Source of the DNA: Mesorhizobium australicum
Lineage (GTDB): Bacteria > Pseudomonadota > Alphaproteobacteria > Rhizobiales > Rhizobiaceae
DNA: 64,000 nucleotides
Direction of reading: 5' to 3'
Assembly: GCF_900177325.1 (NCBI RefSeq)
Contig: NZ_FXBL01000003.1
Span: forward strand, 168,174-232,173
A model generated the notes under the pieces. The model was not told the DNA's origin, made no database searches, and saw nothing but the letters and a program-made list of their open reading frames with translations. Below are positions 7,798-33,346 of the stretch, one piece after another; within the stretch, counting starts at the first letter, position 1; the number at the start of each line of letters is the position of its first letter. The position numbers were made by a program, and so were the translations under genes.

Positions 7798-7841
7798 TTT
7801 CATTTCCTGGTCGACATGAAGGGGCGGCCGGCGCCGTCCCG

Positions 7842-8750: not shown

Positions 8751-8762
8751 TTCGACCTCCCC

Positions 8763-9947: not shown

Positions 9948-9960
9948 CTTGAACTCCTCC

Positions 9961-10926: not shown

Positions 10927-10936
10927 GCGTTCCTCC

Positions 10937-12127: not shown

Positions 12128-12468
12128 AAAATGTCTCCCGAAGATCGTCGCGGGCACGGTGCCCTATCTGTGGCGTTCGGAAGGATGATCGGTTTTGCGC
12201 CCACCGCTCACAACACCTGTCCAGATAGATTAGCGGGCTCCGGGGCGTTGGGCTGAGCCCACTCTTTCAGGTGCAGGGGCGTCCTATCGGATAGGTCGGA
12301 ACCTACCCAGGCGCATCGGCAACCGAGCACCATTTCCGTCCTGTCCACCCCGCTATCGCAGGTCGGCGCGGTGTCTCCTGCTCCCATTCGTTCATGAAAT
12401 GGTTGAATTCGGCGGTAGACGGGAAAGCGGTACCCCTGCGCCGAAAGCCGTCTGCCATGATTTGATGA
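12128..12468 (-). promoter_or_regulatory. Upstream region of the serine-cycle operon with a small palindrome
   Basis: About 340 bp between sga and the IS66 element. It contains a perfect 13-nt palindrome, CCTATCGGATAGG (12283-12295), about 155 bp upstream of the sga start. No convincing sigma-70 pair or QscR-type site was identified by eye. The IS66 element has inserted close upstream and may define its outer limit. Confidence 0.35.
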
Positions 12469-15665: not shown

Positions 15666-16532
15666 TCAATACCAGTCGGGCGTGTGGCGACTGCCGAGCA
15701 TTTCACCGTAGGTATCGATACGACGATCGCGGAGCACTTGATTGAAAGCGTTGCGCCGGGCGTCTGCGAGATTGACTGTGGCGATAAGCACTTCCTCTTT
15801 ATCCTGACTCGCCGGACCGGCGACCGGCCAACCGCTGTGGCCGGCGATCAGGCTCTGGCCAATGAACGGCTGACCGCGTTCGGTGCCGATACGATCTGCG
15901 GCTGCAACGAATACCGAATTGCTGTGCGCAGCTGCCATCACAAGGATGTTGGCCATGGCTTGGCTCTTCGGATCCTGCCCCGGGATCGGCACCCAGTTGG
16001 TCGGTACGCAAATTATTTCCGCGCCTTGCAACGCAGAAAGCCTGAAACATTCAGGGAACCAACAGTCATAACAGATGTGACAACTGATGCGCCCGAGGGG
16101 TGTATCGAACACCGGGAAACCAAGGTTACCTGGCGAGAAGTATAACACTTCGTCCCCCCATAGATGCATCTTGCGGTAGCGCCCAATCACACCATCGGGT
16201 CCGAGGATTACCGCCGAGTTGTAAAGCTTCTCACCATCGCGTTCGACGATGCCGGCTACTAGGTGCATACCCAGCCGATTGGCGGCACGACACCATGCCT
16301 CGGTCGACGATCCTGCCGGAATCAGTTCCGCCAGCGATCGCGCCTCAGCACGCGTCTGAAAGACATAGCCGGTATTGCACAGCTCCGGCAATACCATAAG
16401 ATTTGCCCCCTTCGCAGCAGCCTTTTCCATTAGCGTAATGCTGCGCGTCACATTCGTCTCGATCGCACCGAAGCTCGGTTCCATCTGGCCGACGGCGACG
16501 GTGACCTCGGCTTCTTTGTTCCGTTTCGACAT
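15666..16532 (-). CDS. Carbon-nitrogen hydrolase (nitrilase superfamily amidohydrolase)
   Basis: A cytoplasmic amidase or nitrilase-fold hydrolase of 288 residues. The catalytic triad is visible: E50 in LMVLPELCNTGY, K121 in GRYRKMHLW, C154 in CHICYDCWFPE. Family members cleave amides, carbamoyl-amines or nitriles; the substrate cannot be read from sequence. It is the last gene of the urea/amide operon, downstream of hupE and the AmiC/AmiR pair, so a small amide is a reasonable guess. The ATG at 16532 follows GGTGAG. A decayed second copy lies at about 23560-23875. Confidence 0.88.
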   Translation of the reverse strand: MSKRNKEAEVTVAVGQMEPSFGAIETNVTRSITLMEKAAAKGANLMVLPELCNTGYVFQTRAEARSLAELIPAGSSTEAWCRAANRLGMHLVAGIVERDGEKLYNSAVILGPDGVIGRYRKMHLWGDEVLYFSPGNLGFPVFDTPLGRISCHICYDCWFPECFRLSALQGAEIICVPTNWVPIPGQDPKSQAMANILVMAAAHSNSVFVAAADRIGTERGQPFIGQSLIAGHSGWPVAGPASQDKEEVLIATVNLADARRNAFNQVLRDRRIDTYGEMLGSRHTPDWY

Positions 16533-17273: not shown

Positions 17274-17421
17274 CTTCAGTCTCCTTGCATTCGGGTTGTT
17301 GCCGGTAATATGACTGTTGCCTCTTACTTTCGGCGTGGTGTCGGCAGCACCCCGAAGGCCGCCTCCACGGAGAGCGCAAAGGCGTTCGAGTTCGCGCTGT
17401 TGTGGGATCAAACTGATTCGA

Positions 17422-18981
17422 TCAAAGGTTTGAATCCGTCCATACATTCTTGAACGAATGCCAATTCTGCCTTGGATTGCTAAAACCTTTAACCCGGGGG
17501 TGATAGCAGACAGAGCCACGTCGCAAAGTCAGCATTGGCAGGACCGGCAGATCGTCCATGATCAATGCGTGGGCCTCTCGATACAGCTGGCTTCGTTGAT
17601 CGCCACTCTGGGCTTGCCGAGCTTTGTCTAGCAAGCGATCTACGGCGGAATTGGAGTAATATCCTGCATTGAACCCAAACGGCGAAGTGTTCCGGGAATG
17701 CAGCACCTGCTCCAGCCAGACATCGCAGGACATGCCCCAGCTCATCTGCGAGACGCCTGCGCCATCCGGCAACCCGGATCGCCATTCGTTGCAGTAGAAA
17801 ACCCAGTCTTCTGTCCGCACAATCTCTGCACCGAATCCAATCGCCTCAAGATTCCTCGCCAGATGCTCGCAAATACGGACGGGCATGAGCTGGCCGGATC
17901 CTGCGTTGGCCGTCACGATGCGCAATCGCCAGCCTGGGGGGACGCCTGCTTCCGCCAACAGCTGCCGGGCACGCTCGGGATCGTATCGGTAGGGAAAATT
18001 GTACCCCCCATCGAAGGCCGGTGAAGCGGGCGGCAGCATGCCGGACGCGACGGCCGTGTGTCCGCGGAAAATGTCGTGGCTCAGCCTGTCCCGGTCGACC
18101 GCATGCGCTATGGCGTGACGCACTCGAACGTCGCTGAGGACCGGATCGCGCATGTTGAAAATGAAATACCAGACATAGGGTACCTGGCCTTCGAGGACGA
18201 CAAATCCACGCCGTTCTAATTTGTCGAGATCGCTCCCCTCTAGGCCGTAGGCCAGATCGGCATCACCATTGAGCAATGCGTTGTACCGATCTTCAAGGTT
18301 TGGATACGGCTTGAACTCAATACCTTTGAGCTTGGGCAAACCACCCCAGTAATCCTCATTCCGCCGCAGCCGAACGCCACTGCCGAAAGGTGTTGAAAAG
18401 CGATTGTCAAAACGAAAGGGGCCGGTGCCCGGCGCATGGTCGGCAATGCCTGAGTTGCCAAGCTTTTTTAGAGCCTCTGGACTGATGAAGACATGCGCAC
18501 CCGGTGCGTCCTCCTGTGTCATGTAGCGGAGGAACTCCGGAAATGGCTCCTTTAGCGTGAGTAGGATCGAAAATGGCCCCAAGACTTCCACGGACTTCAA
18601 TGCTTCAAGTCCAATCCGGTTGTAATCCGCCGCCACTGGCGAATATTGAGGCGCCTCAGGATTCCACATGCGGTCAATGTTGAACCGCACGGCCTCCGCA
18701 TCAAGCCGGGTGCCATCGTGGAACCGAACATGCTCCCGCAGACGAAACAAATATTGCAGTCCGTTGCTGGAAACCTCGACTGAAGTGGCAAGCGCTGGGA
18801 TAAGCCGCGTCGGACTGGCTACTTCATCCTCCAGATCGTCCTCGTACAGGCTCTCGAACATCTGCTGGACAACTCTGCCTGTATTCCAACCGCCAAACGA
18901 TGCGGGCGGATCGATCGCGTCCACCTCCCAGTCAAGGGCGACGCGAAGAACAGAGTCAGGGGCGCTTTCCGGTGCCGTCAT
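17422..18981 (-). CDS. SBP_bac_5 (family 5 solute-binding) protein without a signal peptide, copy 1
   Basis: A 519-residue protein of the oligopeptide/nickel-binding (DppA/NikA-like) family. Typical motifs include LRVALDWEVDAIDPPAS at the mature start, YLFRLREHVRFHDGT, VRHAIAHAVDRDRL and YDPERARQLLAEAGVP. It begins only 10-12 residues before the first strand of the fold: no signal peptide, lipobox or Tat motif. The start cannot lie further upstream unnoticed, because its ATG overlaps the stop of the AmiR-like gene (ATGA, 18978-18981). It is therefore predicted to be cytoplasmic, and a ligand-sensing role beside AmiC/AmiR is inferred. No cognate permease genes are adjacent. Copy 2 is at 23876-25444. 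Confidence 0.85.
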   Translation of the reverse strand: MTAPESAPDSVLRVALDWEVDAIDPPASFGGWNTGRVVQQMFESLYEDDLEDEVASPTRLIPALATSVEVSSNGLQYLFRLREHVRFHDGTRLDAEAVRFNIDRMWNPEAPQYSPVAADYNRIGLEALKSVEVLGPFSILLTLKEPFPEFLRYMTQEDAPGAHVFISPEALKKLGNSGIADHAPGTGPFRFDNRFSTPFGSGVRLRRNEDYWGGLPKLKGIEFKPYPNLEDRYNALLNGDADLAYGLEGSDLDKLERRGFVVLEGQVPYVWYFIFNMRDPVLSDVRVRHAIAHAVDRDRLSHDIFRGHTAVASGMLPPASPAFDGGYNFPYRYDPERARQLLAEAGVPPGWRLRIVTANAGSGQLMPVRICEHLARNLEAIGFGAEIVRTEDWVFYCNEWRSGLPDGAGVSQMSWGMSCDVWLEQVLHSRNTSPFGFNAGYYSNSAVDRLLDKARQAQSGDQRSQLYREAHALIMDDLPVLPMLTLRRGSVCYHPRVKGFSNPRQNWHSFKNVWTDSNL

Positions 18982-19595
18982 GATATCTCCTTCGGGTTTA
19001 TATCAGAAATCGGATCCCGCAACCCGGCCGCAGCCAGAACTTGGTCGGCGATGTGGGTCATCGATGCGTGTCCTTCCAGGGACCAGCGCCGGATGAGTTG
19101 ATACGCTTGCTCTTCGCTGATCGATCGCTCGGCGGCGAGGTGCCGGACCGCATTATTCACCACGCGACGCGATCGCAGGGTTTCTTCCAGCTTCGCGATC
19201 TTGCTGTTCTGCCGGCGTTCAAATCGGTATCGCGAACTTGCAACCGTCAACGTCGACAAAATCCCAAAGGGGTGGATGGGCTTGCCGATGATGGCTTGCA
19301 CGTCCGCTTCAAGGAGTTCGCGGACGACCGTGGGGCTCTCATACTCGACGATGCCTATAAGGGCGCCATCGCGATCCCGTTTCAGGTCGCTCACATTGAG
19401 GGAAGAGTGCCCGCCGAAGGTGCAGAAGACGACATCGGCATCAGCCGGCCAACGATCGGGTACCGGCCACAGGGTGTCGACTTGGCATCCGATCCGCTTC
19501 AAGTGCCGAACAAGTTCATCACAGACCGAATCCGGCGGATGGATCACACATGCTCGAAGGTTCCGCAATTCACGAATCAACGCCTCACCGGACAT
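18978..19595 (-). CDS. AmiR-like ANTAR-domain transcription antiterminator
   Basis: A 205-residue protein starting MSGEALIRELRNLRACVIHPP, with a degenerate receiver-like N-terminal half, a coiled coil (SKIAKLEETLRSRRVVNNAV) and a C-terminal ANTAR domain (AAERSISEEQAYQLIRRWS). In Pseudomonas, AmiR binds leader RNA of the amidase operon and is held inactive by AmiC until an amide binds. The gene overlaps the AmiC-like stop by 11 bp and the SBP gene start by 4 bp, so the three are translationally coupled. The target leader is not identified here. A truncated, frameshifted copy lies at about 25445-25712. Confidence 0.9.
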   Translation of the reverse strand: MSGEALIRELRNLRACVIHPPDSVCDELVRHLKRIGCQVDTLWPVPDRWPADADVVFCTFGGHSSLNVSDLKRDRDGALIGIVEYESPTVVRELLEADVQAIIGKPIHPFGILSTLTVASSRYRFERRQNSKIAKLEETLRSRRVVNNAVRHLAAERSISEEQAYQLIRRWSLEGHASMTHIADQVLAAAGLRDPISDINPKEIS

Positions 19596-20781
19596 TGTCG
19601 ATTTCCTCGTATCCGTGATCCCGGTCGATGCGGCCGAGGCCCACATAGTTCACAAGGTACGGGTCCGGTTTCATCGCCCTCTTGAACTCCGCGACGACCC
19701 CGAATTGCCGCCCCGCCTCCGTCATGCCGATTCTAGGCCAGAGGTAGGTATGGCTGTTGTCCGGATCGACCATGACCACGCCCTGGGGAGCCGAGATCTC
19801 GAGGCCGAGCACCTCCGTGCGAAGCCGTTCCGGATCCAGCGTTCCCGCACGTTCCAAGGCTCGCGCAAAGAGCAGCACGGTAAAATATGCAGCCTCCGCA
19901 CAGGCATCGGCCGGGCGCTTGGCTCCGAAACGTTGGTGATAATTGGCAACGAAGCTGCTGTTTCGCGGCGATTGCACCGTTTCGAAATAGGGCGCCGAGA
20001 CAATGTGGCCCGGCCGCGGCTCGAACCACATTTCCTGAAGATGCGCCTCGTTGGTCGTAAGGGAGGCGATCGGCATAACGGCCGGATCGAGATTCTCGGC
20101 CGCGTAGGCATCGTAAAGTGCCGCTATTCCCGGCCCCACCACCGTCGAGAAGATGACATCGGCGCCGAGCGATCGCGCTTCCTTGACCACAGCCACAAAG
20201 GCATCCCTCTGAGCGCCGAACGGCAGATAGTATTCGCCGACGATGCTGCCTCCGATTTCGGACAGGAGGTCGCGCATGATCCTGTTGGATTCACGCGGGA
20301 AGAGATAGTCCGTGCCGACGCACATCAGCTTCCGTCCGTAGCGCGGGAACAGATATTCGGCGAGCGGCAGGTGCAGCTGGTTTGGGGCAGGGCCGGTGTA
20401 GATGACGTTGGACGAATATTCGAATCCCTCGTAACCGATCGAATACCAAAGCAAGCCTCCGCGGCGCTCGACTGCCGGAACCACAGCCTTTCGGCTGTAG
20501 GACGCCGAGCAGCCGAATATGTTGGTCACGCCGCGGTCCATGAGGAGCGAACTGGCGAGTTGGGTATAGCGCTGCGGATCGGAAGCCGGATCCAGGATCA
20601 AGGGAGAAATCGGCTTTCCAAGCACGCCGCCTGCGGCGTTTATCTCCGAAACGGCGAGCAATGTTCCCTGCAATTGCGAAGTCTCGGCAATCGCTGTGAT
20701 CCCGCTTCTCGAGTACAGGACACCCACCGGCCATGTACCCTCCGAACGATAGGACTCCTGCAGTTCGCCAATGCCGGACAT
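19585..20781 (-). CDS. AmiC-like amide/urea sensor (type I solute-binding fold, cytoplasmic)
   Basis: A 398-residue protein of the AmiC/UrtA/FmdD binding-protein group with WPVGVLYSRSGITAIAET near the start and GVLGKPISPLILDPASD. It has no signal peptide, as in Pseudomonas AmiC, where the protein stays in the cytoplasm and sequesters AmiR. It lies 14 bp after ureF and overlaps the AmiR-like gene, so it belongs to the urease operon. Whether the ligand is urea, formamide or another amide is unknown. Confidence 0.88.
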   Translation of the reverse strand: MSGIGELQESYRSEGTWPVGVLYSRSGITAIAETSQLQGTLLAVSEINAAGGVLGKPISPLILDPASDPQRYTQLASSLLMDRGVTNIFGCSASYSRKAVVPAVERRGGLLWYSIGYEGFEYSSNVIYTGPAPNQLHLPLAEYLFPRYGRKLMCVGTDYLFPRESNRIMRDLLSEIGGSIVGEYYLPFGAQRDAFVAVVKEARSLGADVIFSTVVGPGIAALYDAYAAENLDPAVMPIASLTTNEAHLQEMWFEPRPGHIVSAPYFETVQSPRNSSFVANYHQRFGAKRPADACAEAAYFTVLLFARALERAGTLDPERLRTEVLGLEISAPQGVVMVDPDNSHTYLWPRIGMTEAGRQFGVVAEFKRAMKPDPYLVNYVGLGRIDRDHGYEEIDNVR

Positions 20782-20795
20782 CTCGTGCCTTCCTG

Positions 20796-21503
20796 CTAGG
20801 TTGCAAACAGGCGCAGTGGATTACGCTGAAGCTGCAGCATCGCAATATCCAGTTCGAGCGTGGTCGAACTCATGTCGTCGAGAGCCAGGAGCAGGGCCTT
20901 TTCTGCAGCCTCAACAATGGTTGGGACACATTGATAGAGATGAACCTGGGCTTCAGCCGATCCCATCCGGCCGAGCCGCACGGCTGCCGAAAGGAGGCCG
21001 CTTGCCGTGCCGCGCAACTCCGCTAGGAGCGTGTTCTCAATGCCAATTCCCCTGGAGGCCGACACGGCTGCTGCGACGACGGCGAGGTTGCCGGTCTCAC
21101 GCAGCTGCACTTCGCGGCAGAATGGATCGAGCACTTCGTGCGGCCAGACCTGAAGGGCGAGTTTTGCCAGCTGGCGACCGCACGAGGTCGATGCGTTCCG
21201 GGCCGGAACCGACAGCTTTGTGGCCAGAAGACGCTCGTCGACATCGTGCAATTGGTCGAGATCGGCCACCGAAAACATCCGATGCGCATGAGCGGCTGCA
21301 ACGGCGTCGCAGCGGCCCGAGCCGTGGAGCAGCACCGCTTTGACGACTTCCACGATTTGAGCCGAGTTCTTTGGAAGCTCCTCCAGAATTCCTTCCAATC
21401 CGCTGGAGTGGACATAACGCCCGATCGGCAGCGAACTGTCGGCCAACTGAAGGGCCGTCAGGAAACTCGTGTCTATCGCGGTTCCTACCCACATTTCATT
21501 CAT
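20796..21503 (-). CDS. ureF: Urease accessory protein UreF
   Basis: A GTPase-gating factor of the UreD-UreF-UreG nickel-insertion complex. The 235-residue product has the family opening LQLADSSLPIGRYVHSSGLE and a helical remainder including LRETGNLAVVAAAVSASRGIG. It overlaps ureE by 8 bp. The C-terminus ends LQRNPLRLFAT. A divergent second ureF is at 58710. Confidence 0.92.
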   Translation of the reverse strand: MNEMWVGTAIDTSFLTALQLADSSLPIGRYVHSSGLEGILEELPKNSAQIVEVVKAVLLHGSGRCDAVAAAHAHRMFSVADLDQLHDVDERLLATKLSVPARNASTSCGRQLAKLALQVWPHEVLDPFCREVQLRETGNLAVVAAAVSASRGIGIENTLLAELRGTASGLLSAAVRLGRMGSAEAQVHLYQCVPTIVEAAEKALLLALDDMSSTTLELDIAMLQLQRNPLRLFAT

Positions 21504-21990
21504 GGGCGTGCCCCGTCATCAAAAGGGGACGAGAGGCTCCCAGCCGGACGTAGTCGAAACGCAGGGATAGTTCGCCGAGCTTGAGATCTCGAACCGTCTT
21601 CGTCATGAGGTCCACACTCGACAGCATCGGCACGCGGATGGAGCACCCGTCCGCCTCAACCGGTACGTGCTGGTTGCCGAATGCGTGGCCGATAAGCGCG
21701 GCCTGCCGAACGATATCCGGAACCGAGCTGGTCTGGCTGAGGTCAACGATGAGGGCGAGCTCCTCGGGCCTGCACACGACCACCGTGTGATCCTCGTTGT
21801 CAAATAGGACTGCACCGTGAAAAAGGTACTGGCTGTGCTGCATCGATACCGCGAAATCGAGCCCGCCCTTCGTGTGCCGCCGAAGCCGCCGCTTGCCGGC
21901 CTCCGCCCAAGGCACATCGATGAAATCTAATGTACCGGCGCAGCCTTGGACTGCGTCCAAGGCGCCAACTATTCCGTTCGAGATAAGCAT
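21496..21990 (-). CDS. ureE: Urease accessory protein UreE (nickel metallochaperone)
   Basis: A 164-residue two-domain chaperone that delivers nickel to the UreG/D/F complex. The central GHAFGNQHVPVEADGCSIRV segment matches the UreE metal-binding domain, with the conserved GN-H pattern. The C-terminus is short, ending GHAHE, rather than the long poly-His tail of Klebsiella UreE. Starts 5 bp after ureD; overlaps ureF. Confidence 0.9.
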   Translation of the reverse strand: MLISNGIVGALDAVQGCAGTLDFIDVPWAEAGKRRLRRHTKGGLDFAVSMQHSQYLFHGAVLFDNEDHTVVVCRPEELALIVDLSQTSSVPDIVRQAALIGHAFGNQHVPVEADGCSIRVPMLSSVDLMTKTVRDLKLGELSLRFDYVRLGASRPLLMTGHAHE

Positions 21991-21995: not shown

Positions 21996-22829
21996 CTATT
22001 TCCTCTTAGATGGCGCTGGCGCCCCGATCATCTGCATCCGAATCCTTGACCAAGCGTCTTCCATGAGACGCGTGATTGTTGAGGACGACCGGGCGAGGAC
22101 ACGGACGATGATCCCTACCGCTCCGGGCAGGGCGCCTACGCCCAATCGAAAATCCTCGCCCGTCATGTCCAGGGACGAAGCGGCATCGTAAACGCCCTTT
22201 GCGTTGCCACCTGGAATGAGCGCCAGCAGGTTTCCCGAGTAGAGAAAGGAGCCGAGGACGCCTCTTATATTGATCGGCGTCGTCGTCGGTTCCAAGACTA
22301 TGCGGTCCGTGAAAAGCGTGCTTCCGTCGAGCCTAATCTGCGTTTCCAGTTTGAGGCGGCTGAACGCGAAAATCTCGCCACGGGCCAAACGTCCCGGCGC
22401 GATGATTTCGCTCGCAATGAGCATGGATCCGCGATCGAGATTGATCGTAGTCTCCTGGTTGTAGGAGGATTGCGCCTGCGGTATGAGCTGGTCCGGCAGG
22501 TACTCAATGTACGACCCCTGCTTTGCCTCCAGCTGCACCTTCTGAAACGCTGATCCGTCGAGCATCCGGTGCAGCTTGGTCGCGGACGTGCTCGTGACAT
22601 GAAGTTTTGCGCCGTTCCGCGCAGCAATCCGCAGTTCCAGCTGGTCGCCGCTAAACACCGCGCCCGAGGGATTCTGGACATAAATGAAAGCCATGCCAGG
22701 CTGGCTCTCGTCCAGAAAAAGGGGTGTGGTGAAATGCAAGGGAAATCTCTGGGCCCGCCGCATGAGGTGTGTTTTCCCGAGGCAGTCGGCTGCAAATTCC
22801 AGGTCGAGTAGGCCGGACGAGCGTGTCAT
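21996..22829 (-). CDS. ureD: Urease accessory protein UreD
   Basis: The scaffold of the nickel-insertion complex, 277 residues. It has FIYVQNPSGAVFSGDQLELRI and VTSTSATKLHRM, the typical UreD core, then YLPDQLIPQAQSSY and a C-terminal LGVGALPGAVGIIVRVLA. It begins 6 bp after ureG, an order (ureG-ureD-ureE-ureF) less usual than D-A-B-C-E-F-G. Confidence 0.92.
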   Translation of the reverse strand: MTRSSGLLDLEFAADCLGKTHLMRRAQRFPLHFTTPLFLDESQPGMAFIYVQNPSGAVFSGDQLELRIAARNGAKLHVTSTSATKLHRMLDGSAFQKVQLEAKQGSYIEYLPDQLIPQAQSSYNQETTINLDRGSMLIASEIIAPGRLARGEIFAFSRLKLETQIRLDGSTLFTDRIVLEPTTTPINIRGVLGSFLYSGNLLALIPGGNAKGVYDAASSLDMTGEDFRLGVGALPGAVGIIVRVLARSSSTITRLMEDAWSRIRMQMIGAPAPSKRK

Positions 22830-22835: not shown

Positions 22836-23456
22836 TCAATGCACCGCACAGCCGAACAGGGCCTCCCTTTTGATGATGTCAAAGACCTCCCATGCACCTT
22901 CCGGCGAACGCAAATTCGTGTAGATGGTCGCCTTTTGAGGGCGGTTGACCTGAACGTCGTGACGGATGCGATTCAGGTCGGCGCCTACATGCGGAGCGAG
23001 GTCTACCTTGTTTACGATAAGGAGATCGGCCTGGAGCATTCCAAGCCCCCGCTTGCGCGGGATGTCGTCGCCTGCGGCGCAGTCGATCACGAAGATCCAA
23101 TAGTCCACGAGTTCCGAAGAAAATGTCGCGGCCAGATTGTCTCCGCCGCTCTCGATCAGGATCAAATCGAGCGAGTTGTCGCGTTCCAATGCATCGGCGG
23201 CCTGAATGTTGACTGAAGGGTCCTCGCGGATCGCGGTATGAGGGCACGCGCCGGTTTCAACGCCGATGACCAGCGTTTCTTCGATGAGGCCGCTTGCCTT
23301 GACCCGCATCGCGTCCTCCAGAGTCACAAGATCGTTGGTGATGACCGCAGGCTTCAGTCCCGCCTCATGGATGAGGGGCAGGAGACACTCGATTAGCCTC
23401 GTCTTCCCGGAGCCCACCGGACCACCGATGCCGATGCGAACGGCTTTTGCGGACAT
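22836..23456 (-). CDS. ureG: Urease accessory GTPase UreG
   Basis: A SIMIBI-class GTPase that powers nickel insertion, 206 residues. The P-loop [15 protein letters not shown] is near residues 8-22; [16 protein letters not shown] and [16 protein letters not shown] are the metal-binding CPH and switch regions; [17 protein letters not shown] is the guanine-specificity motif. There is no His-rich N-terminus. The DNA just upstream repeats the ureC-ureG junction found at 25941-25990, marking the duplicated block. Confidence 0.95.
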
Positions 23457-23476: not shown

Positions 23477-23875
23477 TTAAAGGGCGCCAAGCGGCACCTT
23501 GCTGGCCGGAAGCGACGTGCAGTGCTCACCGATCCGGCCGAGCGGTGCATCGGCAAAACCAAGGTTACTTGGCGGTAACCCATAGATGGATTCTTGCGGT
23601 AGCACGCAATCATCGTATCCGAGGACTACCGCCGAGTTGAGAAGCTTTTCACCGTCGCATTCGACGATGCCGTTCACTAGTTGCATACCCAGCCGGTTGG
23701 CGGCACGACACCATGCCTCGGTCGACGGTCTTGCCGAAATCAGTTCCGCCAGCAATCGCGCCTCAGCACGTGTCTGACAGAAATAGCGAGTATCACACAG
23801 CTCCCACAATACCATAAGATTGGCAGCAACCTTTTCCATAAACGTAATGCTGCGCGTTACATTCATCTCGTGGGA
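23477..23875 (-). pseudogene. Fused fragments: nitrilase N-terminal half joined to the ureC C-terminal tail
   Basis: The reading frame starts with NVTRSITFMEKVAAN and LAELISARPSTEAWCRAANR, clearly the nitrilase of 15666-16532 but with deletions. The catalytic Glu segment is altered (LWELCDTRY), and the Lys and Cys regions are missing. Near its end it switches to [17 protein letters not shown], the last residues of ureC. It lies between SBP copy 2 and ureG. It is the tail of a tandem duplication that joined the end of one operon copy to the end of another ureC. Confidence 0.85.
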
Positions 23876-25444
23876 TCAAACTGGTTCGATCAAAATGTCT
23901 GAATCCGTCCATACATTTTTGAACGAATGCCAATTCTGCCTTGGGTTACGAAACCCCTTTACTCGAGGGTGATAACAAACGTTACCACGTAGCAAATTCA
24001 ACATTGGCAGTACCGGCAGATCTTCCATGATCTTTGCATTGGCCTGTCGATATAGCTGGCCTCGTTGATCATCGTTCTGGGTTCGTCGGGCTTTGTCCAG
24101 CAAATCATCTGCGACCAGATTGGAGTAATATCCTGCATTGAATCCAAACGGCGAACTGTTCCTGGAATGAAGTACCTGCTCCAGCCAGACGTCGCAGGAC
24201 ATACCCCAGCTCATCTGCGAGACACCGGCGCCATCCGGCAAACCGGATCGCCATTCGTTGCAATAAGAAATCCAGTCTTCTGTCCACACAAACTCTGCAC
24301 CACACCCAATCTCCGCAAGACTCTTCGCCAGATACTCGCAAATCTGAACGGAATGCCCGGACCCAGCTTTTGCCGACATGATGCGCAATCGCCAGCCCGA
24401 GGGGACGCTAGCTTCCGTCAGTAGCTGCCGGGCACGCTTCGGATCGTATTCATAAGGAAAATTGTAGTCCGCATCGAAGGCTGGCGAAGCGGGCGGCAGC
24501 ATGCCGGGAGCGGCGGCGGTGTGTCCGCTGAAGAAGTCATTGCTTAGCTTCTCCCGATCGATTGCGTGGGCGATGGCGTGACGCACGCGGACGTCGCTCA
24601 GGACGGGATCGCGCATATTGAAAATGAAGTACCAGATATAGGGTACCTGGCCTTCTAGGACGACGAAGCCGCGCCGCACCAACTCGTCGAGATTGCTCCC
24701 CTCGAGGCCGTAAGCCACGTCGGCTTCGCCGTCGAGCAAGGCCCTATAGCGGTCTTCAAGTCTCGGATACGGCCTGAACTCGATCGCGTTGAGCTTAGAT
24801 CTCCCTCCCCAGTAGTCCTCGTTCCTGCTCAGCCGAACGCCGCTGCCGAAGGGCGTTGAAAAGCGACTGTCGAACCGAAACGGACCGGTTCCTGGGGCAA
24901 GGTCCGCAATTCCCGAATTACCGTGCTGTTTCAGTGCCTGCGGGCTGATGAAGACATGAGCGCCCGGGGCGTCCTCCTGCGTCATGTAGCGGAGGAATTC
25001 AGGGAAGGGCTCCTTCAGGGTAAGCAGGATCGTGAGCGGCCCCAAAACCTCAACGGATTTCAGCGCTTCGAGACCGATCCGGTTGTAGTCCGCTGCCACA
25101 GGCGAATACTGCGGCGCCTCAAGGTTCCACATGCGTTCTATGTTGAACCGCACAGCCTCCGCATCGAACCGGCTTCCATCGTGGAAACGCACACCCTCCC
25201 GCAAGCGGAATAGATATTCCAGCCCGTCGCCGGAGATCTCGACCGAAGTGGCAAGAGCGGGGATAAGCCGCGTCGGACTGGCTGCCTCATCCTCCAGATC
25301 GTCTTCGTATAGGCTCTCAAATACCTGCTGAACAACCCTCCCCGTATTCCAACCGCCAAAAGAGGCGGGCGGATCGATCGCGTCCACCTCCCAGTCGAGA
25401 GCGACTCGAAGAACAGAGTCGCGGGCGTTTCTAGATGCCGTCAT
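23876..25444 (-). CDS. SBP_bac_5 protein without a signal peptide, copy 2
   Basis: A 522-residue paralogue of the protein at 17422-18981, nearly collinear and roughly 85 percent identical by eye. The start MTASRNARDSVLRVALDWEVD at 25444 is the homologous one; the open frame continues upstream to 25618 only through decayed amiR sequence. It again lacks a signal peptide. It remains open across its whole length, while the flanking duplicated genes are all broken. Its former upstream partner amiR is truncated and frameshifted, so it may be translated from its own site or poorly. Confidence 0.85.
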   Translation of the reverse strand: MTASRNARDSVLRVALDWEVDAIDPPASFGGWNTGRVVQQVFESLYEDDLEDEAASPTRLIPALATSVEISGDGLEYLFRLREGVRFHDGSRFDAEAVRFNIERMWNLEAPQYSPVAADYNRIGLEALKSVEVLGPLTILLTLKEPFPEFLRYMTQEDAPGAHVFISPQALKQHGNSGIADLAPGTGPFRFDSRFSTPFGSGVRLSRNEDYWGGRSKLNAIEFRPYPRLEDRYRALLDGEADVAYGLEGSNLDELVRRGFVVLEGQVPYIWYFIFNMRDPVLSDVRVRHAIAHAIDREKLSNDFFSGHTAAAPGMLPPASPAFDADYNFPYEYDPKRARQLLTEASVPSGWRLRIMSAKAGSGHSVQICEYLAKSLAEIGCGAEFVWTEDWISYCNEWRSGLPDGAGVSQMSWGMSCDVWLEQVLHSRNSSPFGFNAGYYSNLVADDLLDKARRTQNDDQRGQLYRQANAKIMEDLPVLPMLNLLRGNVCYHPRVKGFRNPRQNWHSFKNVWTDSDILIEPV

Positions 25445-25940
25445 GGTGCTTCCTTCGAATCGATATTGAAATTCGGATCGCTCTACTCCGACCCGCAGGC
25501 CAGAACCTGATCGGCGACCTTGGTCATCGACGTGCGTCCCTCCAGAGACCAGCGCCGGATGCACTGATACGCATGCTCTTCCTGATCGATCGCTCCGCAG
25601 CGAGATGCCGGACCGCATTATTCACGACGCGCCGCGACCGCAGGGTCTCTTCCAACTTGGCGATCTTGCTGTTCTGTCGGCGTTCGAACCGGTAGCGCGA
25701 ACTTGCAACCGTCGAGGCCGAGCACCTCCGCGCGAAGCCGTTCCGACGCGGATGACCAGTGTCTCTTCGAGAGCCGCTCGCATTGAGCCGCATGGCATGC
25801 TCCAGTGTCACAAGGTCGTTGGTGATGGCCGCGAGCTTCAGTCCCGCACTATGCATCAGGGGCAGTAGACGCTCGAATAGCTTGGTCTTCCGGCAGCCTA
25901 CCGGACCACCGATGCCGATGCGAACGGCCTTTGCGGACAT
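25445..25940 (-). pseudogene. Chimeric remnant: ureG start, short amiC piece, amiR ANTAR part
   Basis: From right to left three fragments are joined. Positions 25752-25940 are the first 60 or so codons of ureG, with a ruined P-loop (GGPVGCRKTKL). About 25712-25747 match a short stretch of amiC (19795-19840). About 25445-25712 match the C-terminal half of amiR (TVASSRYRFERRQNSKIAKL onward) with a one-base loss after AAERSI that breaks the ANTAR domain. This is the upstream part of the decayed operon duplication. Confidence 0.85.
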
Positions 25941-25949: not shown

Positions 25950-27665
25950 CTATTTCAACGTATAAAGGACGCCAAGCGGCACCTTGCCGGCCGGAAGGGA
26001 CGTGCAGTGCTCACCGTCGACTTCGACTCTGTAGGTTTCCGGATCTACCGTTACTTTCGGGGCCTTGTCATTCCAGAGCATGTCTCTCTTCGAGAGCTTT
26101 CGGGTTCCGGACACCGGCAGGCAACGTGCGCGCAGCTCCAGCTTTCCGGCCACATCGCGGTCTATAGCTCGCTGAGACATGAAACGAACCGAAAGCGACT
26201 GCGCAGCGCGCCCGAACCAGCCCCATTGCGGACGGTAACGCAACGGCTCGCAGCAATTCAGGGAGGCGTTCGCCTCACCCATGACCGCCATCACCGGAAA
26301 GCCCGACTTGAAGACAGCCTCCGGTTTGACGCCGAACAGCCCCGGCTTCCAGAACACGAGATCGGCCAACTTGCCCGGTTCGAGCGAGCCGACATATTTC
26401 TCCACACCGAACATGCGCGCGGGGTTGATGGTGTATTTGGCGATGAACCGTTTGATGCGGGTGTTGTCGTTGCCGCGGCCGCTGTCCTCGGGGAGAGCGC
26501 CCCGCTGCGCCTTCATGCGGGATGCGGTCTGCCAGGTACGGGCGATGGTTTCTGCGATCCGTCCCATTCCCTGGGAGTCCGACCCTATGGCGCTGATGGC
26601 GCCGATATCGTGCAGCACACCTTCGGCCGCGATGGTTTCGTGGCGGATCCGAGATTCGGCAAAGGCGACATCCTCCGGCAATCTCGGATTGAGGTGATGG
26701 CTAACCATCGCCATGTCGAAATGCTCGTCGAATGTATTGACCGTGTAGGGGTTGGTCGGGTTGGTCGACGAAGGCAGGACGTTCTCGAAGCCGCACACCT
26801 TAATGATGTCGGGGGCATGGCCCCCGCCGGCACCTTCCACGTGGTAGGCGTGAATGGTACGGCCGTCGATTGCCTTCAAGGTGCGCTCGAGGAACCCAAA
26901 CTCGTTCAGCGTGTCGGTGTGCAACTGAATTTGCACGTCCGCCTCGTCAGCAGCCACCAGTGCTGAATGGATCGCGGCGGTTGTGGCGCCCCAATCCTCG
27001 TGAATTTTCAGCCCTGCGGCGCCTGCCTCGAGCTGCTCGATCAGGGGCTTTTGGCTGTCTGAGGCCGCCTTTCCGAAGAAGCCGAAATTAAGCGGGAACG
27101 CCTCGGCTGCCTGGAGCATATATCCGAGGTTCACAGTGCCGGTGGAGGCGATCGGAACAGTGGTAGCGCCCAGTCCGCCGCCGAACAGGGTGGTGATGCC
27201 GCTGGCCAGCGCCTCTTCGCACTGACCCGGATCTATGAAATGGACGTGGCAGTCAACGCCGCCGGCCGTGACTATCAGCCCCTCCGCCGCGCGAACGTCC
27301 GTGTTGGTACCGACGATCAGTTTCGGGTCCACCCCGTCCATTATCCGGGGGTCACCCGCCTTGCCGATGCCGGCGATCAGGCCGTCTTTGATCCCTATAT
27401 CGGCCTTGATGATGCCGAGGACCGGATCGATGATCGTGGCATTCGTTATCACCAGATCGAGTGCACCGTCTGCCGCAGTGATGTGGCCATGACAGCCGGT
27501 GCCCACTCTCAGGGTTTTTCCAGCCCCGAAGACGAGTTCGTCGCCCGGAACCAGGAGATCCCGCTCGACTTCCGCCCAGAGATCCGTGTCCCCAAGACGG
27601 ACCCGGTCTCCCGTCGTCGGCCCGTACAGCTCGACATATTGGCGGCGCGACAGCATCTTAGCCAT
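25950..27665 (-). CDS. ureC: Urease alpha (catalytic) subunit
   Basis: Hydrolyses urea to ammonia and carbamate at a di-nickel centre. From [15 protein letters not shown] (ATG at 27665, overlapping the ureAB stop) it has 571 residues. Nickel ligands are in place: H140 and H142 (VDCHVHF), carbamylated K220 ([10 protein letters not shown]), H249, H275 and D363 (GSDSQGMGR). Two oddities: the active-site flap reads MVSHHLNP, with Ser322 where most ureases have Cys, and the C-terminus ends [11 protein letters not shown] instead of the usual ...MAQRYFLF. Confidence 0.96.
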
Positions 27666-28359
27666 GGTCGGCTCCCCTGAACCCTTCGGCTGCTGCGCGT
27701 GCAACCGCCCTGCGCTTCACCTCCGGGTTGTCCAAGTCACCATTGGTCAGGTTGTTAAGCCCTTCGACGCGCCGCTCGCCGCCGATTGCGACAAGGTCGA
27801 CGGTCTTCTCGTCCCCCGGCTCGAACCGGACCGTCGTTCCCGCCGGAATGTCGAGACGGAAGCCAAAGGCTGCGGCCCGGTCAAACTCCAGTTCGGGGTT
27901 TACTTCGAAGAAGTGGAAATGGGAGCCGATCTGAATGGGGCGGTCGCCAAAGTTGCGAACAACTACCCGCGTCGTCGCACGACCGACATTGATCTCTATT
28001 CCTTCCTTCGCCAGGCGATAGCCGCCTGGTTTGTCCTCCTCTTCGGTATTCTGCGGCAGGCCGAGGGGGTCGTGGACACAAACGAGCTTCTGACCGTCCG
28101 GAAACATCGGCTCGACCATCAGCATTTCCAACAGCGGCACGACGCCGGGTTGGACTTCCTCAGGCTGCAGTATAGTGCGGCCAAAGGCCATCAATTCCGA
28201 GACCGAACTCCCTCGTCTGGCCTTTTCGTGGATTGCATCGGCGATTACCGCTCTGGCCTCCGGTAAATTCAGCGGTATGCCGTCGGCCAGGCGGCGCCGA
28301 GCCATCTGCGCCGCCGCGAAAATCAGAAGTCTGTCGCTTTCCCTGTTGGTCAGATACAC
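27658..28359 (-). CDS. ureAB: Fused urease gamma-beta subunit (UreA-UreB)
   Basis: A 233-residue fusion. Residues 1-100 are the gamma subunit ([21 protein letters not shown] and [14 protein letters not shown]); the rest is the beta subunit ([19 protein letters not shown]-like text and [18 protein letters not shown]). A GTG start at 28359 is used, with GAGGGC upstream. Such fusions are known from Helicobacter UreA and some proteobacteria; free-living rhizobia usually keep the two genes separate. It overlaps ureC by 8 bp. Confidence 0.94.
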
Positions 28360-28397: not shown

Positions 28398-29105
28398 TCA
28401 GAGGCTTATGTGAGCCGTGATCTTTTCGTGCGTATCCGCGTCCCGTGTGTTTCCGGATCCCGATATTTCGCCCTTATCCAGGAGGACATATCTATCGGAA
28501 ACGGCGCGGGTGAACGGAATGTTCTGTTCAACCAGCAGAACGCCGAGGCCCGAGCGATCCCTCTCCGTCTTGATGATGTTCACTAGGTTGGAGATGATCG
28601 AAGGCTGCATGCCTTCGGTTATCTCGTCGATCAGCAGCACCTTGGCTCCGACGGAGAGGCCGCGTGCCATCAGGAGCATCTTCTGCTCGCCGCCACTGAG
28701 CGTGCCGGCTTTTTGCTGCAACCGCTGGAGGAGAAACGGGAAGCAACGGCCGATCGTCGCCTTTGCCTCGTTCCAGCCTGCCGAGCCACGCAACGCCAAG
28801 CGAATGTTTTCCTCGACCGTAAGGTCCTGAAATAACGCTTTTTCCTGCGGCACATAAGCCACGCCAAGCCGGGCAATCTGATGGGGCCGGGATTCGCTGA
28901 TAGCATTCTGCGCCATCGACACGGAGCCTGAAAACTTCGGCAAATACCCCATGATCGACTTGAGAAGTGTACTCTTGCCCATGCCGTTCTTGCCGACCAC
29001 GGCGACGATTTCGCCGCGGGCAATCGTCAAGTCCAGGTTCCGTACTACGGTCGCCTGTCCATATCCGCTGCTGAGACCATTCACAGCGAGCATTGCTTCC
29101 GTCAT
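28398..29105 (-). CDS. urtE: Urea/amide ABC transporter ATPase UrtE (LivF-like)
   Basis: A 235-residue ABC ATPase with Walker [11 protein letters not shown], signature LSGGEQKML, Walker [11 protein letters not shown] and LLVEQN. It is the second ATPase of a branched-chain/urea-type (HAAT) importer. It follows the fused permease-ATPase by 14 bp and precedes ureAB by 38 bp. Substrate is inferred from the neighbouring urease genes. Confidence 0.9.
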
Positions 29106-29119: not shown

Positions 29120-30946
29120 TCAGTGCCCCGACCCGGCATAGACCGACTTGACGAGCTCGGAATTCACGACCTCATCGACCGAGCCGTTAAGAACAATCCG
29201 ACCTTGATGCAGAACGATCACCCGCGAAGAAATCTCGCGGACAAACTCCAGGTCGTGCTCCACGAGCAGAATGCAGAGTTGCTCCGCTTTGGCGAGTTCC
29301 GTCAGGATCGTTCCGATCAGCGTGCGCTCGGCTTTGGTGAGACCAGCCGTGGGCTCATCCAGGAGGACGACTTTGGGCTCGAGAGCCAACACCATTGCCA
29401 ATTCGAGCGCCTGCTTCTTTCCGTGCGACAGCACTTGCGCAGGCACGTTCAGATCGCTGTGAAGACCCGTGGCCCTGACGACGCGCATGGCAGAGGGCGG
29501 CAGACTGCAAACACCGGATTTTTGCCATTTCGACAAAGGATCCAGGCGCGCCCGGGCAATCTGGAGGCACTCGCCGACCGTCAAAGTGTCAAAAACGTTG
29601 GCCGTCTGGAACTTGCGGCCGACTCCGAGACGCACGCACTCTTCAGGCGGACGATGACCGATATCCTGGCCAGCGACCGAAATCGTGCCGCCGCTGCGCT
29701 TCGAGCCGTCGGCGATGCAGGTCATCAGGGTCGTCTTGCCGGCGCCGTTGGGCCCCACGAGACTGACGATCTCGCCATAGGTAGCTTCGAAATCGATGCC
29801 GGACAGAACCTCCAGGCTGCCGAATCGCTTCTCGACCCCGCTCACCGCAAGCGCCGGTCCGCTGGACCCAGCCGCAATGTGGTTATGTTCGCTCCTGCTC
29901 GCTTTGCGCAGCTGGAGCTGAGAGTATGGATGCGGCTGGGCTTTGCCGGTGCGACCACGGAACCAGTTTGCGGCCTGAGAAATTAACGGCAGGATACCGC
30001 GCGGCAAGGCTACGATAACGGAAACAAAGACTATTCCGATGACAAGCTTCCACACGAAGGGAAAATCGCCCTGCAACTGCGCACTGGCATAGTCAATGAT
30101 GATCGTTCCGATCACCGGGCCAAACAGCGTGCCGCGCCCGCCCAATGCTACCCAGATCAGAAGCTCCGTTCCGAACGTGAAGCCGGCGATTTCAGGAGCA
30201 ACGACCATCGTGTAGTTGGCGTACATCCAGCCGGCGATCGCGCCAATTGCGGCACAGATCAGAAAAATCACCTTTTTGATGTTCGAGGTGTTCAAGCCAA
30301 GATACTTGCACCGCTGCTCGTTCTCGCGGATCGCGATCAGAAGCCGTCCCGCGTCGCTGCGTGTGTACATCCAAGCCGCTGCCGTCAGGACTACCAGCCA
30401 GACGCCGACCACCCAGAACCACCCTTCGGAGCTCAGGGGAATAGTGTCGAAGCCAGTCAGGCCGCTGCTGGAGCCGGTGTAGGTTCCGCCGGAAAACAGA
30501 AGCTGGGTGACAATGATCGGCAGGACGAGGGTGATCACCGACGCATACAGCGCCGACGCGCCATGCCAGAAGGCCAGGAATGCCACCAAGCCGGCGAGAG
30601 CGACCGCGACCGCGATACCAATCAGGAGGGCGGCGAAGGCAAATTCAGCCGAAAAGCCGCCGTAGGTGAAAACCAATGCCGTCGCGTAGGCGCCGGCCGC
30701 AAAGAATGCCGACTGACCGAAGGTCAGAACTCCGAGGTAGCCCCAGAGGATGTCGACCGACAGTGCGATCGTCGCATAAATCATCGATCTCACGAGGACG
30801 TTCACGGAATAGGCGTCCATAAAAAATGGCGCGGCGCCGACGCCGATCAGAACGATCGAAGCGACGATCACCATCCTTGTCAGCGGGGGAACCTGGGGTC
30901 GTGGAACGGAAGTGCTTCCCAATTCCTTAACGTTCGCATCACTCAT
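29120..30946 (-). CDS. urtCD: Fused ABC permease-ATPase (UrtC-UrtD)
   Basis: A 608-residue fusion. The first roughly 330 residues form a LivM/UrtC-type permease with about nine membrane segments (e.g. LWGYLGVLTFGQSAFFAAGAY and VALGGRGTLFGPVIG). A charged linker (about 340-370) follows, then a LivG/UrtD-type ATPase with GPNGAGKTTLM, a slightly unusual signature LSHGKKQALELAM and Walker B VVLLDEPTAGL. The fusion ties one permease to one ATPase at equal dosage. It overlaps urtB by 8 bp. Confidence 0.92.
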   Translation of the reverse strand: MSDANVKELGSTSVPRPQVPPLTRMVIVASIVLIGVGAAPFFMDAYSVNVLVRSMIYATIALSVDILWGYLGVLTFGQSAFFAAGAYATALVFTYGGFSAEFAFAALLIGIAVAVALAGLVAFLAFWHGASALYASVITLVLPIIVTQLLFSGGTYTGSSSGLTGFDTIPLSSEGWFWVVGVWLVVLTAAAWMYTRSDAGRLLIAIRENEQRCKYLGLNTSNIKKVIFLICAAIGAIAGWMYANYTMVVAPEIAGFTFGTELLIWVALGGRGTLFGPVIGTIIIDYASAQLQGDFPFVWKLVIGIVFVSVIVALPRGILPLISQAANWFRGRTGKAQPHPYSQLQLRKASRSEHNHIAAGSSGPALAVSGVEKRFGSLEVLSGIDFEATYGEIVSLVGPNGAGKTTLMTCIADGSKRSGGTISVAGQDIGHRPPEECVRLGVGRKFQTANVFDTLTVGECLQIARARLDPLSKWQKSGVCSLPPSAMRVVRATGLHSDLNVPAQVLSHGKKQALELAMVLALEPKVVLLDEPTAGLTKAERTLIGTILTELAKAEQLCILLVEHDLEFVREISSRVIVLHQGRIVLNGSVDEVVNSELVKSVYAGSGH

Positions 30947-31775
30947 AAGAAAACCCCTGCGGACGGATACGGAGGACGACAGCAGCCAGGGCGGCGATCG
31001 TCATGCCGCCGAGGACCGGCCCGAAATAATTGCTCACGAGGACTTGGGCGCCGCCCAGCACAATGCTCGCGACAGCCAGGCTATAGAGCGAGGAACCCGA
31101 TACGAGCACGAGCATGAAGGCGCTGATCAGCCAGGCGACGCCCATGTTCGGATCGACGCTGGATAGGGGCGTTATCAGAGCTCCCGCCACCGCCGCCAAC
31201 CCGGAGCCGAGGGTGAACGTGACGGAGCGGACAAGTCCGCTGTTGATACCGAGCCCGCGTGCGAGGTCCTCGTTCATGATAACCGCGCGTGTGGATAGGC
31301 CTAGCGAGGTACCCCGGAGCGCCAGCGTCAAGCCGACCCCGAGCAGCAGCGCAAGGGCGATCAGGATCAGCCTATAGGTCGAATACGGCTCCCCAAGGAT
31401 GCTGATTACGCCCCTGATCGGAGGTTCGGCGAAATGAACGCCCCGATCAAAAACCAACGTGATGATCTGCCCGATGATGATACTCAGGCCCCAAGTCGCC
31501 AGAATTGCATCGAGGGGACGATTGTAGAGCGAGCGTACGACGACACGCTCCATGCCGAGACCGACGATACCACCGAAGATCGCAGCCAAGGGTATACCGA
31601 CCCAGGGACTTACCCCCATCGCGGTGGCCATGACCGCAGCATAACCGCCGAGCGTCATCAATGCGCCATGCGCGAAGTTGATCAGTTTCATAACGCCGAA
31701 TACAAGAAGCAATCCCAAAGACACGATGTATAAGATTGCTGCAGTTGTTATGATATCAAGTAGTACCGGAACCAT
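30939..31775 (-). CDS. urtB: ABC transporter permease UrtB (LivH-like)
   Basis: A 278-residue integral membrane permease of the LivH/UrtB group, with about eight hydrophobic segments and motifs VFGVMKLINFAHGALMTLGGY and TRAVIMNEDLARGLGIN. It partners UrtCD. The ATG at 31775 lies about 160 bp downstream of urtA, separated by a strong hairpin; its stop overlaps urtCD. Confidence 0.92.
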   Translation of the reverse strand: MVPVLLDIITTAAILYIVSLGLLLVFGVMKLINFAHGALMTLGGYAAVMATAMGVSPWVGIPLAAIFGGIVGLGMERVVVRSLYNRPLDAILATWGLSIIIGQIITLVFDRGVHFAEPPIRGVISILGEPYSTYRLILIALALLLGVGLTLALRGTSLGLSTRAVIMNEDLARGLGINSGLVRSVTFTLGSGLAAVAGALITPLSSVDPNMGVAWLISAFMLVLVSGSSLYSLAVASIVLGGAQVLVSNYFGPVLGGMTIAALAAVVLRIRPQGFSYE

Positions 31776-31934: not shown

Positions 31935-33095
31935 TCACAGATTGGGGCACTGCTCGCCCGGGTCCACGTTGGGCTGGGACTTGATGATCGTGGTGTCGCC
32001 CTGAGCATTGACCTGCGCGAGATACATCGTCAGCGGAGCATGACGTTGCTTCGACATTTGTATGGGGCCTCTAGGACCATCAAAACTTACTTCGCTCAGA
32101 GCCTTTACGACGGCGTCCGTGTCCACTGTGCCGGCTTTTGCTACAGCTAGAGCATAGAGATGAACGGCGTCATAATTCGGGACCGAGAGTTCACTTGACG
32201 TTTTTGTCTCTGCGCCGAATTTATCATTTAACGCTTTTAAGAACTGCGCATTTTTCTCAGAATTGATGCCTGTGTAGTACGTGCCGCCGAGATAAATTCC
32301 TTCCCCATCCGACCCTAGGGTCTTTGCAGTACCTTCATCCAGTGCGTAGCTGCCATAGTTGGCGGTGATGCCGGCCGCCCGTAACTGCTTTGTGAACGTC
32401 ACATTTGGCGCGCCTGCCGCAGTGGAAGTTATGATGACATCTGGATTGGCCTCGCGGATCTTGCTAACGGTCGCCGTCCAATCACTGGCGTCGATCGGAT
32501 TATATTCTTCTCCGACGACCATCCCACCTTTCTCTGTGACATAATTGTTGGTATCGCCAAGAAGACCTCGGCCGAAGGCATAGTCGTTTCCAACTAGGAA
32601 GAATGTCTTCGCGCCTAGATCCTTCATGAAGTAGTCAACCATGAGGGACACCACTTGCTGTGGCACCCAGGCGTTGATGTGCTGATACTTGTTACAGGAA
32701 CCTCCTTCATAGAAGGAAGTATAAATGTACGGGATCTTTCCCCTAGTGATGATCGGCAGGCCAGCGTTTCTGGCCGCGCTCGGCTCCGATGAAATTATAA
32801 CGTCGACTTTTTTTTGATACACGAGAGAGTCGTACGCCTTTTGAGCTCCTGCAGCACTGGATGCACTGTCAGCAAGTTCAATAACAAGCTTTCTGCCCAA
32901 CACCCCCCCTGCGTCGTTGATTTCAGAGACTGCAAGCTCCGTCGCCTGAATAACCGCGGGAGCCGTGATGCTGTTTGCACCGCTCAATCCGATTGGAATG
33001 CCCAACACGATCGGCTCGTCTTGCGCAACTGCGCTCCCGGTCAATAGGGCAGTTACGGCAAGCAACACGGAAATCTTCTGCATAGATGGTTTCAT
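31935..33095 (-). CDS. urtA: Periplasmic urea/short-chain amide binding protein (UrtA/FmdD-like)
   Basis: A 386-residue type I solute-binding protein with a signal peptide (MKPSMQKISVLLAVTALLTG, cleavage near AVAQ). The mature part opens EPIVLGIPIGLSGANSITAP and ends DPGEQCPNL. It is the first gene of the urt-ure operon, behind an AAGGGGAA site. It resembles urea, amide and branched-chain binders; the urease genes downstream favour urea or a small amide. Its base composition looks lower in G+C than its neighbours. A decayed copy lies at 42407-43385. Confidence 0.88.
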   Translation of the reverse strand: MKPSMQKISVLLAVTALLTGSAVAQDEPIVLGIPIGLSGANSITAPAVIQATELAVSEINDAGGVLGRKLVIELADSASSAAGAQKAYDSLVYQKKVDVIISSEPSAARNAGLPIITRGKIPYIYTSFYEGGSCNKYQHINAWVPQQVVSLMVDYFMKDLGAKTFFLVGNDYAFGRGLLGDTNNYVTEKGGMVVGEEYNPIDASDWTATVSKIREANPDVIITSTAAGAPNVTFTKQLRAAGITANYGSYALDEGTAKTLGSDGEGIYLGGTYYTGINSEKNAQFLKALNDKFGAETKTSSELSVPNYDAVHLYALAVAKAGTVDTDAVVKALSEVSFDGPRGPIQMSKQRHAPLTMYLAQVNAQGDTTIIKSQPNVDPGEQCPNL

Positions 33096-33346
33096 TTGCG
33101 TTCCCCTTGTGATTTTTTTGCCCGCTCAAAGCGCCAGCTGACACCGTTTCCGTTGAGCAGACGGCAGCCGTCGGCCAGATGAAATGATGTCGATAAATTT
33201 GAGAGTGCTGGCGAAACTGCGCGCTGGCAGGAATGTATCCTGAGCGTGGCACGTGGTACCAGATTGCGGATGGCTATCCCGCCACCCATTTGGAACGCTC
33301 GCACACATGCAACATGACGTCAATATCGGTAGTGTCTCAGTTTGAA
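33096..33346 (-). promoter_or_regulatory. Leader/promoter region of the urt-ure operon
   Basis: No gene is visible. Several blocks (around 33175-33190, 33221-33231 and 33300-33330) are repeated upstream of the pseudogene copy of urtA (43430-43610), so the duplication included the control region. A GACGGC/GCCGTC hairpin lies about 60 bp before the start. A leader antitermination site for the AmiR-like protein might be expected here, but I cannot delineate the two-hairpin ANTAR target or a sigma-54 promoter by eye. Confidence 0.4.

Follow-up and report, generated by a model that had tools for sequence, protein, structure and literature searches.

What might a substrate-binding protein (SBP) that lacks an export signal be doing at the end of a urease operon? 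The question is raised by a 64,000-nucleotide stretch of Mesorhizobium australicum DNA (the window), in which the gene for a 519-residue protein of the SBP_bac_5 family (17422..18981, minus strand, as are all genes of the module described below) is the last of three overlapping genes that sit directly after ureF (20796..21503). The amiC-like gene (19585..20781; 398 residues, Peripla_BP_5) and the amiR-like gene (18978..19595; 205 residues, frame open to 19646) overlap by 11 bp, and amiR overlaps the SBP gene by 4 bp, the ATG of the latter lying within the amiR stop, as an earlier preliminary description of the locus had reported. Its assignment of AmiC also held, since the closest solved relative is Pseudomonas aeruginosa AmiC and the partner carries AmiR_N and ANTAR domains. 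AmiC is a cytoplasmic binding-protein-like sensor that holds the RNA-binding antiterminator AmiR, and binding proteins of the SBP_bac_5 family are regarded as extracytoplasmic. The preliminary description proposed that the SBP may serve this pair as a second sensor. Our own answer, which we hold tentatively and as plausible rather than probable, is that the SBP, rather than being a transport protein, stays in the cytosol and serves the urease end of a mobile module as an adaptor or accessory factor gated by a ligand.

In a profile search, the window SBP scored 256.9 bits against PF00496 (SBP_bac_5; curated cut-off, 32.4). The protein is of full length and has the complete two-lobed fold, which begins at residue 10, and PF00496 is the sole domain found, with no fused DNA-binding domain. 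The Escherichia coli regulator SgrR is cytoplasmic and joins an SBP_bac_5 domain to a DNA-binding domain; the window protein is like it in having this domain in the predicted cytoplasmic location and unlike it in being the fold alone (SgrR was compared by description only). Unlike the dipeptide and glutathione SBPs of PF00496 (DppA, GsiB/YliB), it has neither a signal peptide nor a permease or ATPase in the module, and it scores far below the GsiB and DppA model cut-offs; the module regions that were opened have no annotated Dpp/Opp set next to the SBP gene.

N-termini were inspected at 22 places where members of the same clade are encoded (12 in a first set and 10 in a second), by sequence inspection. 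None of the 20 readable ones carries an export signal or lipobox, and the other two (L131 and L133) are frame-broken at the 5' end. Hydropathy over the N-terminal 12 residues was 0.41-1.0 in 18 clade rows, compared with 1.88-2.70 in four exported outgroups, which were the nearest four of the 40 non-clade alignment rows; among the other 36, with unverified starts set by script, 23 score 1.0 or less and so are not above the clade. A mis-called start of an ordinary transporter SBP was rejected, because the start is preceded within a few codons by an in-frame stop in the window and in most Mesorhizobium copies. Where the 5' frame is longer (the second copy in the window, the second copy at L010, and L014, L126, L127, L130 and L136), either a usable start or a signal-like stretch was lacking by eye. 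The claim that the missing signal is not an annotation artefact is thus borne out, and by the sequence criteria used the SBP appears to be cytoplasmic.

The signal-less SBPs make up a clade with 50-91% identity, found in alpha-, beta- and gammaproteobacteria, and in a 22-row tree 18 of its proteins form a monophyletic group (100/100) against the four exported outgroups. L011 (frame stopping at 413 residues) and L015 and L018 (chimeric or cut by a contig end) were left out of both alignment and tree, L057 out of the alignment, and L131, L133, L134, L136 and L139-L141 out of the tree. The SBP is under purifying selection, with omega at 0.07-0.20 in eight of nine SBP pairs (saturation leaves the ninth undefined), and 143 of the 519 positions are invariant over the 18 clade rows.

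Across the collections searched, the constant partner of this SBP is the urease, and the position of AmiC-AmiR varies. On plasmids, the 18 records whose UreF is closest (at least 37.8% identity) coincide, accession by accession, with those that contain the SBP at no less than 50%. The UreF and SBP genes are adjacent in all 18, or have amiC and amiR (amiCR) alone between them (Aminobacter and two Ancylobacter); adjacency was taken from match coordinates for all 18 records, and 12 of the regions were opened. The remaining 20 of 38 plasmid UreF records, at 34.5% identity or less, are not among the SBP records. Two phylum samples drawn separately, with 398 and 396 genomes, likewise contained the SBP, and a UreC of at least 72% identity, in the source genome and G995 alone. 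The clade is rare. At E 1e-60, the plasmid collection yielded 99 SBP records, of which 18 fall at 50-86% and the others at 34.5% or less, and a scan of genome contigs found 77 SBP loci, ten of which (L009-L018, in Mesorhizobium and Microvirga) are close, at 58% identity or more; the next relatives reach at most 34%, and the nearest four of these have signal-like N-termini. With the source genome counted each time, the clade occurs in 1 of 397 genomes at order level, 2 of 394 at family level and 2 of 398 at phylum level. Of 5426 E. coli genomes, two carry its enterobacterial version, which is plasmid-borne there.

Five arrangements of the module were seen. In arrangement I, represented by the window, other Mesorhizobium loci and Aminobacter, the order ureF-amiC-amiR-SBP is followed by hupE (a weak match in Aminobacter). 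Arrangement II has an inverted amiC-amiR between ureF and the SBP (Microvirga, Ancylobacter), and arrangement III runs ureAB...ureF-SBP-amiC-amiR-urtA...urtE-nitrilase (Comamonas, Cupriavidus, and G995 across the fetched stretch, which stops in urtCD). In arrangement IV, amiC-amiR-nitrilase-urt-ure...ureF-SBP (three Paracoccus and G646), amiCR stands ∼11 kb from the SBP at the opposite end of the operon. Arrangement V, nitrilase-urt-ure-SBP, is that of Enterobacter and Klebsiella plasmids, and no amiCR was found near its SBP (29.9 of 61.4 kb of pENT-784 covered). The module lies, whole or truncated, on Enterobacter, Klebsiella and E. coli plasmids (L128/L132, L134, L133, L145, L167) among transposase and recombinase genes, in some cases beside resistance genes.

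These arrangements bear directly on the proposal that the SBP binds AmiC or AmiR and so adds a second input to antitermination. The proposal draws on the 4-bp coupling to amiR, on the finding that three of the four amiCR-bearing arrangements place the pair next to the SBP, and on the absence of signals from both the SBP and AmiC, with SBP, amiC and amiR consecutive in arrangement III. The coupling is not general, however, being confined to the window and Aminobacter among the arrangements seen, and in arrangement IV the SBP gene lies behind a terminator that follows amiR. Thus, of the three-gene linkage expected from the preliminary description, the tie between the SBP and the cluster stood, but amiCR may be inverted, placed after the SBP, ∼11 kb away or not found. 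A search for signal-less SBP genes beside ANTAR genes elsewhere had also been suggested; no SBP_bac_5 gene was found within 1.5 kb on each side of 29 AmiR_N loci outside the source genome (the best-scoring ones, from the 103 of 397 genomes with a match), while an AmiC-like frame was present at all 29. An AmiC relative occurs in 139 plasmid records at E 1e-90 (30 listed). Since the coupling is not general and the SBP tracks the urease type one-to-one, we do not favour a second sensor and consider it rather unlikely.

The adaptor or accessory role that we favour would work as follows. The mobile module would consist of a nitrilase, a UrtABCDE importer, a urease with a serine in its mobile flap (Ser-flap) and its accessory proteins, usually AmiC-AmiR, and the cytosolic SBP of Venus-flytrap form. 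AmiC-AmiR would sense an amide or ureide, upon which transcription would run on into the module, and the SBP would be among the proteins made once transcription proceeds. Inside the cell it would most likely bind a small pathway compound and, as an adaptor or accessory factor gated by that ligand, act on the urease end of the module or together with it, a site of action suggested by ureF being its constant neighbour. The lack of an export signal, the complete fold, the purifying selection, the strict co-occurrence with this urease clade across the collections searched and the position behind terminator-bearing leaders in arrangements III and IV are observed, whereas we infer the AmiR control, the ligand, the partner and the step at which the SBP acts.

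The urease itself is of a distinct type. UreC (25950..27704) passes the urease alpha model with 818.2 bits against a cut-off of 680, and, as in classical UreABC and UreDEFG with UrtABCDE, the catalytic Lys, His and Asp motifs (carbamylated Lys, metal His, Asp) are kept. The module differs from the classical one in its fused UreAB and UrtCD, its constant SBP partner, a flap Cys replaced by Ser, and a clade-specific GGGLG(A/P)T motif. The mobile flap reads S-H-H in the window, with GGGLGAT as the motif, and S-H-N in a second copy on contig C2 of the source genome, where most ureases have C-H-H. Ser is present in all 19 clade UreC rows, some of them close relatives, and Cys in 18 of 20 non-clade rows (8 of 10 in a first set and 10 of 10 in further genomes), the two exceptions being Gly in a urease-like gene pair on C2. 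The stretch GGGLG(A/P)T---TVPIASTG was found in 18 of 18 clade rows covering the region and in none of 10 others. The flap Cys is near-universal in ureases, yet not strictly essential, and the Ser-flap enzyme may have a changed substrate. Were it a separate enzyme class for a substituted urea or amide and not chiefly for urea, the SBP, a binding protein of a transport family, could be its dedicated cytosolic partner, a ligand-gated subunit or assembly factor, carried with it as one mobile module across bacterial classes, which we think unlikely. The C2 gene pair (L149 and L150; G000:C2:118751-120466 and 124740-126434) resembles urease alpha but has a G-H-S flap, in which both the Cys and the second His are missing; the two genes are in opposite orientations, with some 4 kb between them.

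Linkage to urease accessory genes might instead mean that the SBP carries nickel, or a nickel chelate, through the cytosol for urease maturation, and nickel-binding proteins are among the structural relatives of SBP_bac_5. The window SBP shares its fold family and urease context with NikA and CntA, but it scores 132.4 bits where the NikA equivalog cut-off is 393, and 108 where the CntA model cut-off is 800. Replacement of UreE as the nickel carrier was rejected on the same NikA score and because UreE keeps its GNQH motif; in Paracoccus, UreE also has a His-rich tail. The link to hupE is patchy, with matches beside the SBP in Mesorhizobium-type loci, in Microvirga and weakly in Aminobacter, and no match in arrangements III-V or in Ancylobacter; furthermore, the source genome has other urease-like genes. 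The nickel-sensing function raised in the preliminary description is therefore unsupported, and a nickel carrier seems to us quite improbable.

The control of the module was examined in its leaders. Once AmiC has bound amide it lets go of AmiR, whose target is an mRNA leader with hexaloops that follow an A1/G4 rule (PMC3369931). The window leader (33268..33324) comprises an ATTGAC box (33297-33324) and a seven-pair hexaloop hairpin (33268-33287), and the element occurs exactly three times in the source genome, each time 5' of a urtA copy; the pattern was built from these leaders and their relatives, and a reversed-pattern control gave no matches. Three of the seven pairs change on both sides, and 98.7% of cells pair in a two-helix structure, compared with at most 54.5% in slid controls, while one of five pair-count measures (further pair types) is not above shuffles, 431 of 500 of which reach it. 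The covariation would be equally expected from a DNA palindrome. The loop is GGGATA or GGGCTA. In contrast to the P. aeruginosa system, whose AmiC/AmiR order and domains are retained here alongside a urease, urea-transport and nitrilase module and an extra signal-less SBP_bac_5 protein, the window leader shows neither an A1/G4 hexaloop pair nor a clear U-tract terminator. Dual A1/G4 hexaloops were not found in it; stems of at least 4 give three tandem pairs, all elsewhere on the minus strand (24234-24276, 52510-52531 and 60032-60060); a looser rule gives 8 tandem pairs in the window's 128 kb of strand.

In arrangement III, the ureAB leader carries a pair of A1/G4 hexaloops separated by 6 nucleotides, both at L129 and at the related L139, the sole tandem pairs among 18 leaders; in random sequence, 62 and 37 of 2000 trials, respectively, yield one. 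In the urtA leader of arrangement III the second hairpin is repeated exactly, and AGCGCT stands in the place of the first. Folding indicates strong terminators in both arrangements (z -3.4 to -6.8, for sequences picked by eye and hence not blind), located between amiR and the nitrilase gene in arrangement IV, and before ureAB and between amiR and urtA in arrangement III. A terminator scan passed over these long terminators because its loop limit is 8, and at L129 and L142 its sites were no more numerous than in shuffled sequence; in the window it gave 23 terminator-like sites where the mean was 16.0 (sd 4.5), on which no conclusion rests, and a promoter scan of the window gave no excess. The tandem hexaloops and terminator in the ureAB leader make AmiR control of the arrangement III unit ending in the SBP likely. 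In arrangement IV, amiCR lies 5' of the terminator and the SBP 3' of it, as expected of an output gene.

Two further explanations were considered. The window carries a mosaic insert between ureC and ureG, a duplication at about 82-86% nucleotide identity, made up of a 5' piece of ureG (25740..25940), a truncated and frame-broken amiR remnant (25445..25730), a complete second SBP (23876..25444), which has 83% identity and likewise lacks a signal peptide, and a nitrilase gene fragment (23579..23870, duplicating 16157-16461). A third intact SBP follows a standalone urtA on C2, which also has a second urt-ure-amiCR operon with a frame-broken SBP. Such repeated duplication with frames kept, and the pairing of extra SBPs with a standalone urtA behind the conserved leader, as if import and binding were raised jointly, would suit a protein with no regulatory role that binds an intermediate, toxic or scarce, as its buffer or carrier between import, nitrilase and urease; a binding protein is a costly bulk buffer, and we judge this unlikely. 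The SBP could also be the vestige of a transport protein, carried along after losing its signal and transporter, to which the missing permease and the frame-broken copies might point. The low omega, the invariant positions, the intact extra copies and conservation over three classes argue against this, making it very improbable.

Several observations weigh against the adaptor or accessory role. Four module SBP copies look frame-broken (the one on C2, L011, L131 and L133), of which the source genome and that of L011 keep another intact copy. Intact SBPs are also found outside urease operons, next to a Dpp-type transporter at L016 and after a standalone urtA on C2 and at L012 and L017. Close enterobacterial relatives account for ten of the 18 plasmid records and near-identical pairs for others, reducing the sample to about five or six lineages. 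SBP distances match those of UreC (Mantel r 0.978) a little more closely than those of AmiC (0.935; 11 loci, the L140 AmiC being partial), which speaks for the adaptor role, but AmiC co-diverges with the SBP as well, and inheritance as one module, with linkage by hitch-hiking, would explain the co-divergence of both without direct contact. In addition, the SBP and amiCR of arrangement III share one unit, so that its leader does not part regulator from output. At L016 (2468-4018, Mesorhizobium Root552), the signal-less SBP, 59% identical to that of the window, lies just 5' of the transporter operon, which has its own exported SBP (26% identical).

Loss of the export signal, together with co-travel with one urease type and usually an RNA-binding switch across three classes and often on plasmids, points to an unrecognised cytoplasmic part of a nitrogen-scavenging system. 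If true, the SBP fold would have found a new use in a cytosolic clade linked to a single urease type, and the actual substrate of the Ser-flap urease would become a direct question. Annotated plasmid records name the clade protein 'ABC transporter substrate-binding protein', and the module on Enterobacter, Klebsiella and E. coli plasmids, several of them clinical, would pass as an ordinary urease operon.

The window operon reads urtA-urtB-urtCD-urtE-ureAB-ureC-[insert]-ureG-ureD-ureE-ureF-amiC-amiR-SBP, followed by hupE and the nitrilase gene. The urtA-like gene (31935..33095) encodes an exported protein with a signal-like N-terminus and scores under the curated cut-offs; urtB (30939..31775) was named by homology to an annotated Aminobacter permease (94% match); and the urtCD-like fusion (29120..30946) and the urtE-like ATPase gene (28398..29105) are under their equivalog cut-offs. 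These are followed by the ureAB fusion (27658..28359; urease gamma/beta) and, beyond ureC and the insert, by ureG (22836..23456), ureD (21996..22829), the ureE-like gene (21496..21990; Pfam matches under cut-off) and ureF, which belongs to a distinct clade of PF01730. The hupE/ureJ-like gene (16672 to about 17379-17519; PF04955) seems split near 17090, with its N-terminal and C-terminal parts in different frames, and relatives likewise give two-frame matches. The nitrilase-family amidohydrolase (15666..16532; PF00795) has N-carbamoyl-type enzymes among its solved relatives. An NYN-domain (nuclease-like) gene (33347-34000, minus strand) lies immediately upstream of the urtA leader, and a further urtA copy (42406-43390, minus strand), frame-broken and by sequence a pseudogene, has the conserved leader at 43573-43600.

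Serine-cycle type C1 pathway genes flank the module on both sides (261-12256 and 34753-39369). They encode SHMT, PEP carboxylase, a MOFRL/DUF4147 protein that we take to be glycerate-kinase-like, a hydroxyacid dehydrogenase, a CoA-ligase pair, a class-V aminotransferase, FolD, formate-THF ligase and a GcvT domain. Methyl or formyl groups may be present on the substrate of the module. FolD and formate-THF ligase genes are likewise found upstream of the module on Aminobacter pSR3.

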